From Thermoanaerobacterales bacterium (GTDB lineage Bacteria; Bacillota; Desulfotomaculia; Desulfotomaculales; JASEER01): a DNA stretch of 64,000 nucleotides. Location of the stretch: assembly GCA_030019475.1 (NCBI GenBank), contig JASEER010000001.1, positions 3,606-67,605 of the forward strand, read 5' to 3'. Position numbers and translations under genes: made by a program. Within the stretch, counting starts at the first letter, position 1; each line of letters starts with the position of its first letter. This document shows, one piece after another, positions 8,453 to 57,636 of the stretch. Below the pieces are notes generated by a model, which had not been told where the DNA came from, made no database searches, and worked only from the letters and a program-made list of their open reading frames with translations.

Positions 8453-8528
8453 GCCAAGGTAGCTCAGTAGGTAGAGCAGGGGACTGAAAATCCCCGTGTC
8501 GGCGGTTCGATTCCGTCCCTTGGCACCA
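8453..8528 (+). tRNA. tRNA-Phe (GAA)
   Basis: Acceptor GCCAAGG/CCTTGGC, anticodon stem GGGGA/TCCCC with loop CTGAAAA (anticodon GAA), discriminator A and encoded CCA. It is 18 bases after tRNA-Asp. Confidence 0.95.
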
Positions 8529-33211: not shown

Positions 33212-33477
33212 AGTGACACCCCCGCAAAACCCATCTTCTTTATTCTATTTACGAAAGGAAGGATACAAAAGGCTGTATCGATCGCCTTATTCCCCCACCA
33301 AACGACATCCATCGCTGTCGAAAACCTTAAACCCGGGTTTGACGTCCATCTTTAAAAGGGCGGGGATGGCAGCATATCGCCCGCCACGCGGGTATGCTCC
33401 GGCGGATCAAGACATAGGAGGCCAGAGCGAGGTTGACAGAGAGAGCGGCGATTGTTTATAGTACCTACACAACTTCA

Positions 33478-33628
33478 TACCCCCAGCGCTGAATCCCCGG
33501 TGCGACCGGGGAGCGGAGGAACCGGTTCCCTTTGGGGTGAATCGCCGGGCGGGTCAGGGCCCGCCTGGGTAGGGTTACTCTTCGACCCGAACCCGTCAGC
33601 TAACTTCGCAAGCGTCGAAAGAGGAGTC
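33478..33628 (+). promoter_or_regulatory. c-di-AMP riboswitch (ydaO/yuaA type)
   Basis: The conserved ydaO core is present in order: CGCTGAATCC, GGAGCGGAGGAACCGG, TTTGGGGTGAAT, GTAGGGTTACTC, CCCGAACCCGTCAGCTAA and CGCAAGCGT-AAAGAG. Boundaries are approximate. It lies about 150 bases ahead of an amino-acid ABC transporter operon and is followed by a terminator at 33670-33697, fitting an off-switch on c-di-AMP binding. cdaA in the same window could supply the ligand. Confidence 0.9.
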
Positions 33629-54916: not shown

Positions 54917-55036
54917 TGCCTAACCTCCTCTCTCTGTTCCCCGCGAAGAATTAGGACAGGCGTATCGCCTTTCATTATACCATTGTTGCGCCGTTGTTGC
55001 CGGGGCAACTTCATCCGCCGGCACCGGGAAAAACCC

Positions 55037-55066
55037 TTGACATGGACGGTCTCGTTCTGGTATCAT
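55037..55066 (+). promoter_or_regulatory. Promoter of aroF-pheA leader
   Basis: A perfect TTGACA at 55037 and TATCAT at 55061 with an 18-base spacer. It starts a leader of about 510 bases. Confidence 0.75.
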
Positions 55067-55072
55067 TTTTCT

Positions 55073-55441
55073 AATTTCAAAAAGGTAAAGACCGTGAAGG
55101 GGAAAAGTAGGCCCGCCCCAGCCTCACAGGGAGGGTGCGTCACCGACTGCGAGCGCGTCCAGGCATGACCGGCTGAAGTTCTCCCCGGAGTTGCCGGCTG
55201 AAAGAGAAGCCAGAGGCCGGAAGTCGGAGAGCAGAATGCTCTGATTCTTTCCACCTCTTTCGATAATGATCTCTTGCTTCTGACTTCTTTTGAGTAGGTC
55301 GCGCCGGAATCTCCCGCCGTTACCCGGGAGGGGGTATCGGATTCGTCCCGTACCTTGCCGAAGCGGGTCTTACGACCAACCAGGGTGGTACCGCGGAGGG
55401 CGCAATGCCTTTCGTCCCTTAGGACGGAAGGCTTTTTGTTT
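55073..55441 (+). promoter_or_regulatory. Full-length T-box leader, first of two
   Basis: The conserved T-box AGGGTGGTACCGCGG is at 55382-55396. It is followed by the terminator CCTTTCGTCC-ctta-GGACGGAAGG with TTTTTG (55407-55440). The T-box can pair with the 5 prime arm to form the antiterminator. About 300 bases upstream supply stems I-III, including AGGGAGGGTG near 55130 and the stem CCGGCTGAAGTTCTCC. A TTC there is a possible phenylalanine specifier, but the specifier loop is not certain. Confidence 0.85.
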
Positions 55442-55556
55442 GAGGGGACGGTTTCCCGTATCCTGTTGAGAGGGCCTTTTACGGCCAATTTGGGTGGTAC
55501 CGCGGAAGCTTAAAGCCCGGCTTTCGTCCCAGGCGACGGAAAGCCGGGCCTTTTTA
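55442..55556 (+). promoter_or_regulatory. Second, truncated T-box unit
   Basis: A second T-box TGGGTGGTACCGCGG at 55491-55505 is followed by a strong terminator GCCCGGCTTTCGTC/GACGGAAAGCCGGGC with TTTTT (55515-55555). Only about 50 bases separate it from the first terminator, too short for stem I with a specifier codon. It therefore keeps only a stem III-like region plus the antiterminator/terminator. Confidence 0.8.
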
Positions 55557-55585
55557 TTCCTTAATCACAGAGGAGGGGATGCTTC

Positions 55586-56452
55586 ATGCAGGTGATCACT
55601 TCCGGGGCCGCCGCTGCGGCGGCGCCCATCACCCCCGGTCCATACCCGCTGACCGGGCGGGGGGACCGGCCGGCGTCCGTCGTCCGCGTGGGGGCGCAGG
55701 TGGCTTTCGGTGAGCGCCGGGTGGTGGTTATCGCCGGGCCCTGTGCCGTCGAAGACCCGGTGCAAATGCGGGATGCGGCGCGGGCCGCGGCCGAGGCGGG
55801 AGCGATGATGCTCCGCGGGGGCGCCTACAAGCCGCGCACGTCGCCCTACAGTTTCCAGGGGCTGGAGCGGCGGGGGTATGAACTCCTGGCCGAAGCGGGG
55901 CGGGAGGCCGGGCTGCCTACGGTCAGCGAGGTCGTGGACGAGGAAAGCCTGGCCCTGGCCCTCGAATACGTGGATATGCTTCAGATCGGTTCCCGGAACA
56001 TGCAGAACTTCCGCCTTCTGCGCGCCGTCGGGCGGGCCGGAAAACCCGTGCTCTTGAAACGCGGCCTGGCGGCGACGGTTAAGGAGTGGCTGATGGCCGC
56101 CGAGTACATCCTCGCCGAGGGCAACGACCAGGTGGTGCTCTGCGAGCGGGGTATCAGGACCTTCGAGACCGCCACACGGAACACCCTGGACCTCTCCGCG
56201 GTGGCTCTCGTGAAGCGCCTCAGCCACCTGCCGGTGATCGCCGACCCGAGCCACGCCACGGGCAACCCGGACCTGATAGCCCCGATGTCCTGCGCGGCCG
56301 TCGCCGCCGGCGCCGACGGCCTGATCGTGGAGATGCACCCGCGGCCGGAGAAGGCGCTCTGCGACGGAAAACAGTCCCTGACGCCCGAGGCGTTGGCGGA
56401 CATGGTGCGCCAGGTGCGCGCCGTATGCCCCGCCGTGGGGCGCGAGCTGTGA
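55586..56452 (+). CDS. aroF: 3-deoxy-7-phosphoheptulonate synthase, type I-beta
   Basis: A 288-residue DAHP synthase: AGPCAVED, MLRGGAYKPRTSPYSFQGL, DMLQIGSRNMQNF, LLKRGLAAT, LCERGIRTFE, DPSHATGNPD and EMHPRPEKALCDGKQSL. It makes DAHP from PEP and erythrose 4-phosphate, the first step to aromatic amino acids. The N-terminal 35 residues are a short Ala/Pro-rich segment rather than the complete ferredoxin-like regulatory domain of Thermotoga-type enzymes, so direct feedback control may be reduced. It lies behind a tandem T-box. ATG after GAGGAGGGG. Followed by pheA. Confidence 0.94.
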   Translation: MQVITSGAAAAAAPITPGPYPLTGRGDRPASVVRVGAQVAFGERRVVVIAGPCAVEDPVQMRDAARAAAEAGAMMLRGGAYKPRTSPYSFQGLERRGYELLAEAGREAGLPTVSEVVDEESLALALEYVDMLQIGSRNMQNFRLLRAVGRAGKPVLLKRGLAATVKEWLMAAEYILAEGNDQVVLCERGIRTFETATRNTLDLSAVALVKRLSHLPVIADPSHATGNPDLIAPMSCAAVAAGADGLIVEMHPRPEKALCDGKQSLTPEALADMVRQVRAVCPAVGREL

Positions 56453-56469
56453 GAGGGGGGGATCGCCTG

Positions 56470-57636
56470 ATGACAGATCAGCCGCCCGTCCGGATCGGGT
56501 ACTTGGGTCCGGAGGGAACCTTTTCCGAGGAGGCGGCCCGCGGGCGCGCGCGCGCCTGGCCGGCCGCCGAACTGGTGCCGCTGCCGTCCCTGGAGGACGT
56601 TATCCGCGCCCTGCGCGCGGGCGACCTTGACGAGGCGGTGTTGCCGGCCGAGAACGCCGGGGAGGGAGCGGTGACCGCCACCCTGGATCTCCTGGTTTAC
56701 GAGACCGACGACCTGGGCATTCAGGCGGAGATGGTGCTCCCCGTCCGCCACTCCCTGGCCGCCCGCCCCGGGGTGCGGCTCGAGCAGGTCACCCGCGTAT
56801 TGTCGCACCCCCAGGCCCTGGGTCAATGCCGCGGCTGGCTTGCCCGTCACCTTCCGGGCGCCGTGCTGGAGGAGACGGCGAGCACGGCCCAGGCCGCGGC
56901 CCGGGTGGCGCGCTCCGGAGAAGCCTTGGCGGCCGTGGCCGCCCCCCGCGCCGCGGCGCTGCACGGCCTGACCGTCCTGGCCGGCGACATCGCCGACCTC
57001 TCCCGCAATGCCACCCGTTTCCTTGTCCTCGCGCGGGGGCCGGGAGCCGGCGGCGGCCGCAAGACCTCACTGGTGACCGCCCTTGCCGACCGCCCCGGCG
57101 CGCTCTACGACCTTCTCGGTGAGTTCGCCCGGCGGGGGATAAACCTCTCGCGCATCGAATCCCGTCCGGCCCGCACGCGCCTGGGGGAATACCTTTTCTT
57201 GATCGATATCGAGGGGAGCCCGGAGGCGCGGGCCCTGGCCCAGGCGCTGGACGGCGCACGGGCCCTTTGCACCAGCCTGCGCGTCCTCGGTTCATACGAT
57301 GTGTTTGAGCGGGGTTCATCACCGGACGCGGCCGTACCGAGCATCCCCGCCTTGCGGGAATCCATCGATGCTCTTGACGGCCGGCTGGTTGAGCTTCTGG
57401 CACGCCGGACGGCCCTCGCGCGGGAAATCGGGCGGCTCAAGCGGGGACCCGTGCGCGACCCGCGCCGGGAACGGGAGGTCATTGCCCGGGTACGCCGCCT
57501 GGCCGCCGGGTACGGCCTGGACCCCGAGACGACGGAGGGTGTCTTTCGCCTCATCCTGACCCACTCGGTCATGGTACAGACCGCACAGCGGGGCATATTC
57601 CTCCAGGCCTGTCCCAATCCGCCAGGAGCCCCATAA
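56470..57636 (+). CDS. pheA: Prephenate dehydratase-ACT-chorismate mutase fusion
   Basis: A 388-residue protein starting at ATG 56470 after GAGGGGGGGATCGCC. The prephenate dehydratase domain (about 5-185) starts RIGYLGPEGTFSEEAA and has the catalytic NATRFLVLAR. An ACT domain (about 195-275) carries the LSRIESRPARTRLGEYLFLID phenylalanine site. The last 90 residues (RESIDALDGRLVELLARRTALAREIGRLK) match an AroQ chorismate mutase. E. coli PheA has the mutase at the N-terminus, so the order here is reversed. It converts chorismate to phenylpyruvate and should be feedback-inhibited by phenylalanine. Confidence 0.93.
   Translation: MTDQPPVRIGYLGPEGTFSEEAARGRARAWPAAELVPLPSLEDVIRALRAGDLDEAVLPAENAGEGAVTATLDLLVYETDDLGIQAEMVLPVRHSLAARPGVRLEQVTRVLSHPQALGQCRGWLARHLPGAVLEETASTAQAAARVARSGEALAAVAAPRAAALHGLTVLAGDIADLSRNATRFLVLARGPGAGGGRKTSLVTALADRPGALYDLLGEFARRGINLSRIESRPARTRLGEYLFLIDIEGSPEARALAQALDGARALCTSLRVLGSYDVFERGSSPDAAVPSIPALRESIDALDGRLVELLARRTALAREIGRLKRGPVRDPRREREVIARVRRLAAGYGLDPETTEGVFRLILTHSVMVQTAQRGIFLQACPNPPGAP

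Follow-up and report, generated by a model that had tools for sequence, protein, structure and literature searches.

How can a T-box unit that lacks stem I, and with it a specifier, take part in the specific control of an operon? The question is raised by the aroF-pheA leader in a 64,000-nucleotide stretch of a Thermoanaerobacterales genome (order Desulfotomaculales; contig JASEER010000001.1, hereafter the window), where one complete T-box is followed by a second unit with neither stem I nor stem II, a terminator hairpin and U-run standing behind each. The promoter, the parts of the first unit and the genes of the operon are as follows, numbered within the window:

55037..55066, + strand: promoter TTGACA-18-TATCAT of the sigma-70 type (11/12 matches)
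55085..55422, + strand: unit 1, a complete T-box with stem I, stem II, stem IIA/B, linker, stem III and antiterminator (RF00230)
55179..55181, + strand: specifier UUC, a Phe codon, within the loop of stem I, GAAG-UUC-U (RF00230 alignment)
55317..55322, + strand: F-box CCGUUA in stem IIA/B (sequence and RF00230 alignment)
55330..55341, + strand: strand D, GGGGGUAUCGGA, the 5' half of the linker hairpin, occurring once per leader
55346..55354, + strand: strand R1, UCCCGUACC, the local partner of D, 5' of the unit-1 stem III (D:R1 -13.1 kcal/mol)
55361..55379, + strand: discriminator 1, RRRxG (AAGCG), stem III (GGUC/GACC) and AA (motif as in PMC7583486)
55382..55395, + strand: T-box 1, AGGGUGGUACCGCG, with bulge UGGU (sequence and RF00230 alignment)
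55407..55437, + strand: terminator 1, GCCUUUCGUCC/GGACGGAAGGC followed by UUUUU (consensus scan and folding)
55586..56452, + strand: aroF, 3-deoxy-7-phosphoheptulonate synthase (DAHP synthase; PRK08673 418 bits, TIGR01361 377 bits)
56449..57636, + strand, start codon not fixed: pheA, prephenate dehydratase carrying chorismate mutase as a C-terminal domain (PRK11898 284.7 bits; residues 416-499 of the product match chorismate mutase models below cut-off)

The initial annotation had seen two T-boxes and two terminators some 110 bases apart, with no room for a stem I in the second unit, and both observations stand. The T-boxes (55382-55395 and 55491-55504) are 109 nt apart, and terminator 1 ends only 53 nt before T-box 2; as this gap already holds the stem III of unit 2, an ordinary stem I cannot fit. 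The complete-plus-truncated architecture is borne out by a search with the Rfam T-box model RF00230, the check that the annotation itself had proposed: unit 1 matches at 55085-55422 over model positions 1-219 (76.1 bits, E 1.3e-16), complete over a span of 338 nt, and unit 2 matches at 55464-55531 over positions 155-216 only (31.8 bits, E 3.2e-5). Neither this search nor folding revealed a complete stem I overlapping terminator 1. Both scores fall under the gathering score of 93, so that the leader is missed by catalogues relying on Rfam cut-offs and standard annotation is blank here; matches of other Rfam families in the leader region were all below threshold and were disregarded. No promoter-like site lies between the units, the one at 55037-55066 being the only such site in 54950-55600 (mean of 0.1 in shuffled sequences). 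Unit 1 has all that is expected of a T-box riboswitch, namely stem I with its specifier, stem II and F-box, stem III, a T-box antiterminator and a terminator. Unit 2 alone does not qualify as one, having no stem I and specifier of its own, and the leader as a whole is a partially tandem T-box, in which a complete unit and an extra antiterminator-terminator lacking stem I precede one and the same gene.

The UUC specifier identifies the predicted ligand as tRNA-Phe and not tRNA-Trp, which had also been considered at first. GAAGTTC is conserved across the double aroF leaders of the order, and the UGGU of both T-boxes matches A73 of tRNA-Phe(GAA), whose gene lies in the window at 8453-8528 and whose sequence ends in GGCA with A73. 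The stem II of unit 1 carries an insert of about 90 nt at 55200-55290, with the hairpin AGAGCAGAAUGCUCU, which is absent from the relatives compared in family f6.

The second unit, which the initial annotation had described as a T-box plus a terminator, also contains a stem III and a linker strand, and its parts are these:

55440..55467, + strand: unit-2 linker, complementary to the unit-1 linker and paired with D in the joined fold
55454..55463, + strand: strand R2, UCCCGUAUCC, the second partner of D (D:R2 -11.5 kcal/mol)
55468..55488, + strand: discriminator 2, RRRxG (GAGAG), stem III (GGCC/GGCC) and AA (sequence, RF00230 155-216)
55491..55504, + strand: T-box 2, UGGGUGGUACCGCG, with A1 GGG/CCC, A2 GCGGAAGC/GCUUUCGU and a G.U pair at the base of A2 (folding)
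55515..55555, + strand: terminator 2, a hairpin at 55515-55549 and a U-run (folding)

All the elements that define a T-box discriminator are present in unit 2: RRRxG, stem III and AA in succession, a 7-nt bulge UGGNACC between A1 and A2 (here UGGUACC), and an A2 helix, 8 pairs long or more, that begins with the G.U pair by which charged tRNA is rejected. Unit 2 is a complete discriminator and terminator, missing the decoder alone. When the unit-2 transcript is cut at the 3' end of the antiterminator, its lowest-energy fold is the antiterminator (-21.5 kcal/mol), in keeping with the earlier suggestion that this unit could form a competing antiterminator. With the terminator included, the free fold reaches -38.2 kcal/mol, against -33.2 kcal/mol with the antiterminator enforced, so the terminator is favoured by about 5 kcal/mol. 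The consensus terminator scan lists terminator 1 only, owing to a bulge in the second stem, even though the terminator-2 region folds to -38 kcal/mol.

How widespread is such a leader? A strict pattern for paired T-boxes matched 32 of the 113 genomes of the order and none in a reversed-pattern control, and the paired pattern is therefore not due to chance; in a sample of the phylum a strict pattern matched 40 of 399 genomes. When T-box 1 is allowed to read GGUGGUAACGCG, a form that the strict T-box pattern misses, 63 aroF leaders with a complete unit and a second discriminator are counted in 13 families of the order, at spacings of 104-174 nt. The impression given by the strict pattern, that single aroF leaders predominate in the order, was rejected on inspection of the leaders, T-box 1 usually being GGUGGUAACGCG; f17 is the only family of the order with uniformly single aroF leaders. 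The same architecture precedes transporters and a phenylacetate-CoA-ligase-like gene in the order (gene names assigned by eye from translations), aroF in Syntrophomonas and amino-acid ABC transporters in many Lactobacillaceae, where 29 of 32 double leaders carry the His specifier CAC. The double-discriminator arrangement, thought at first to be uncommon as a complete-plus-minimal form, is ordinary in these groups and corresponds to the known 'partially tandem' class. Double leaders with a UUC specifier before other genes of the order suggest a Phe regulon. As separate observations, leaders L009-L028, mostly with UUC, stand before a phenylacetate-CoA-ligase-like gene, a sodium:solute symporter and LivK-like and TrpX-like binding proteins, and in L031-L141, CAC-specifier leaders of Lactobacillaceae ABC transporters, the second, stem-I-less discriminator pairs with the first unit.

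Conservation in the 63 aroF leaders shows what has been kept in each unit. A stem III of at least 4 bp with AA is present in 57 of the second units and 52 of the first, RRRxG in 53 and 57, the ACC bulge in 60 and 12, and the G.U pair at the base of A2 in 56 and 48. These figures bear on the reading of unit 2 as a redundant terminator whose T-box is vestigial and senses no tRNA, so that the unit would act as a fixed filter of leakage. Although terminator 2 is strong, and a recent partial duplication would give the same look, the unit is conserved across 13 families, most of its sensing elements being preserved to a degree similar to or higher than in unit 1, its antiterminator is the best fold of the truncated transcript, and the operon would be shut off by a strong terminator that had no antitermination; we regard this reading as very unlikely. 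The two discriminators may differ in strength. T-box 1 is GGUGGUAACGCG or similar, with the bulge ACC changed to AAC, in 51 of the 63 (L156-L219), T-box 2 keeping ACC, and in a few genomes of family f6 the opposite is seen, with T-box 2 rather than T-box 1 deviating from ACC. The base N of UGGN is the same in both units in 78 of 93 leaders (44 expected), an agreement that we set aside as evidence of one tRNA being read twice, since it is largely explained by ancestry and the leaders of Lactobacillaceae are of the His type. In His-type tRNA, C73 is paired.

The connection between the units appears to lie in their linkers. In the order, the hairpin between the F-box and the unit-1 stem III consists of D, GGGGGUAUCGGA, and R1, UUCCCGUACC, and unit 2 repeats R, as R2, directly before its own stem III with no second D. 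Across the 63 leaders R1 and R2 are equally good partners of D (medians of -11.9 and -12.0 kcal/mol). In many relatives the pairing extends further, from the bases 5' of R2 to the loop of the D:R1 hairpin, something that a simple duplication of R could not produce: in L171 the loop AAUGUUAUU faces AAUAACAUU on the R2 side, in Lactiplantibacillus the loop GGAGUUUAGUGAUAA pairs with UUAUCACUAAACUCC, and between L013 and L015 both sides have changed, from GAGUACG/CGUACUC to GAGUAUG/CAUACUC.

Because D is nearly invariant in the order, covariation in the core of the helix is limited there. In the distant Lactobacillaceae, D and the loop were compared with R2 over 15 positions, with 88.4% of cells paired against 33-52% in slid registers, changes on both sides in 12 of the 15 pairs, and a covariation score of 0.577, compared with no more than 0.188 after sliding and 0.179 after shuffling. 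Comparison of own with swapped unit-2 linkers gave z values of -12.5 for 31 Lactobacillaceae leaders, -11.8 for the 63 aroF leaders and -9.3 for 43 others, the p of 5e-5 in each of the three sets being the permutation floor; the effect stays significant when the sets are reduced to 12-32 dissimilar leaders (z 4.3-7.0), and swapping weakens the pairing also when the loop positions of the fixed register are counted alone. A fresh phylum set of 19 leaders, from outside the data in which the idea was formed, gave z -2.8 (p 0.004), with no pairing in the five leaders that have no linker hairpin. In dinucleotide shuffles within a leader, p fell below 0.05 for 97% of the Lactobacillaceae leaders, 54% of the aroF leaders of the order and 33% of the others, about half of the order aroF leaders thus not being significant when taken singly. 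In all 31 Lactobacillaceae leaders, each unit has 4 nt between R and the purine string of its discriminator. Joining the unit-2 linker to unit 1 brings a gain of about 12 kcal/mol on average, and 6 in the window, and the pairing of this linker often runs past D into R1 and on to the bases preceding discriminator 1; these folding energies ignore pseudoknots, tRNA and transcription kinetics, and as the energies with D:R2 forbidden are a constraint artefact, we used only free folds and pair probabilities.

Taken as sequence comparison, these results point with high confidence to a real D:R2 helix both in the Lactobacillaceae and across the whole order. The window leader has the core D:R2 pairing only, which does not stand out from shuffles of its own linker (0.16 of them doing as well in one comparison, z -0.6 and no significance in the dinucleotide test), and its unit-2 linker can alternatively form a local hairpin; the helix is predicted for it because the leader belongs to the conserved set and because in the joined fold D pairs with the unit-2 linker with P 0.87. 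The GGUAC of the T-box, tried in place of D, was rejected as the main partner of R: R2 variants such as UUCCCAUAC (L194, L195, L201) break that pairing and keep or improve the pairing with D, and the pairing of the loop beyond D is a further reason against it. Some partial tandem leaders (Alicyclobacillus-like, Veillonellales) have neither D nor R2, so the helix is not needed by every double-discriminator leader, and double T-boxes without a D:R1 hairpin must operate differently. Leaders L253-L257, L030, L049 and L087 (Alicyclobacillus-like, Veillonellales and Dialister) are without this hairpin, and no D:R2 pairing was found in them.

Unit 2 could instead be an independent, specifier-less sensor that binds any uncharged A73-bearing tRNA by its CCA end, which would make the leader an AND gate for Phe starvation and general uncharging. 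A discriminator suffices to sense aminoacylation (PMC7583486), that of unit 2 is intact without a stem I, and UGGU suits many tRNAs with A73; such a sensor would nevertheless leave the D:R2 helix, its covariation and the constant spacing from R to the discriminator unexplained, and with stem I described as obligate (PMC7583486) we think it quite unlikely. Part of what the initial annotation had proposed survives, for unit 2, having retained the entire discriminator, could plausibly sense the CCA end. The free-standing, specifier-less form of that sensor does not, as a unit-2 linker strand complementary to unit 1 argues against it and for a shared decoder.

The reading that we prefer, and consider probable, is that a single decoder serves two discriminator-terminator modules in series, with R2 taking D from R1 and the charging of tRNA-Phe being tested twice. 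Its parts, including two intact discriminators and the alternative helices D:R1 and D:R2, find direct support in sequence and comparison. As unit 1 is transcribed, D would pair with R1 and discriminator 1 would test the 3' end of the decoder-bound tRNA-Phe, a charged tRNA leading to termination at terminator 1 and an uncharged one to read-through; because D pairs with one R at a time and R1 is made first, discriminator 1 would be the first to work with the decoder. Once the polymerase had moved beyond terminator 1, R2 would be made, pair with D and displace R1, with the D:R1 loop, which R2 pairs in many relatives, serving as a toehold. The D:R2 helix would loop out discriminator 1 and terminator 1 and set discriminator 2 beside the decoder at the same short spacing, where it would test the 3' end of tRNA-Phe again, the decision falling at terminator 2. 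Expression would follow two consecutive 'uncharged' readings made via one decoder, and since both would be required, lower leakage and a sharper response are to be expected. We infer this order of events, the co-transcriptional strand exchange and the double testing of the same decoder-bound tRNA, or of its replacement on the same stem I.

A helix does not by itself imply that the tRNA is tested again, and a proofreading function is a real, if tentative, possibility: stem I would hold the tRNA while the exchange of R2 for R1 swapped the discriminators, and the charging of one tRNA would be read twice per transcription pass. For an ordinary T-box, kinetic proofreading before commitment has been described in a single-molecule study (PMC5951919), whereas here, as we propose, the leader itself would provide it in the form of a second station. 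The D:R2 helix might also be real and have another role, dismantling or insulating unit 1 after read-through or protecting the RNA, with discriminator 2 recruiting a second tRNA otherwise. Pairing of the unit-2 linker into R1 and the bases before discriminator 1 would indeed disrupt that discriminator, but insulation needs no repeat of the unit-1 spacing between R and stem III, which 31 of 31 Lactobacillaceae leaders repeat, and we consider such a role unlikely.

T-boxes with duplicated terminator-antiterminator elements were reportedly described by Vitreschak et al. in 2008 (RNA 14:717), and the architecture is already known; the long-range D:R2 helix is the new result, and the mechanism built on it is proposed with moderate confidence. 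In a literature search that excluded the 2008 paper on the class, no description of this exchange helix was found. Partially tandem T-boxes, the mode of action of which is given as unknown (PMC7583486), share with our leader a complete T-box followed by a repeated antiterminator-terminator, whereas our analysis defines the repeat as an entire discriminator together with a linker strand that is complementary to unit 1. Fully tandem T-boxes, as in trp, ilv and thrS leaders, likewise have two serial terminators under the control of uncharged tRNA and a proposed sharper response, but each unit has its own stem I, which our second unit lacks (PMC12452182). The Rfam model RF00230 is matched in full by unit 1, and its T-box bulge and stem III motif occur in both units, while the consensus has no counterpart of the D:R1 hairpin, an insert that follows the F-box and precedes stem III, and unit 2 covers only positions 155-216. 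Pseudo-cooperative tandem riboswitches also place expression platforms for the same ligand in series, but with one aptamer per platform (PMC9481103), in contrast to one decoder for two platforms here.

The D:R2 helix would account for how a specifier-less unit could stay specific, and makes the action of partially tandem T-boxes open to a simple mutational test. Many leaders counted as single may hide a second checkpoint below Rfam thresholds, as we suggest for the Lactobacillales histidine transporter leaders, an Rfam-based survey having found Lactobacillales his leaders to be mostly single T-boxes (PMC9413887). One decoder with two platforms would be a natural design, in which a single RNA sensor is reused for two successive outputs. 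Elsewhere in the window, a c-di-AMP riboswitch of the ydaO/yuaA type lies at 33477-33628 (88.3 bits).
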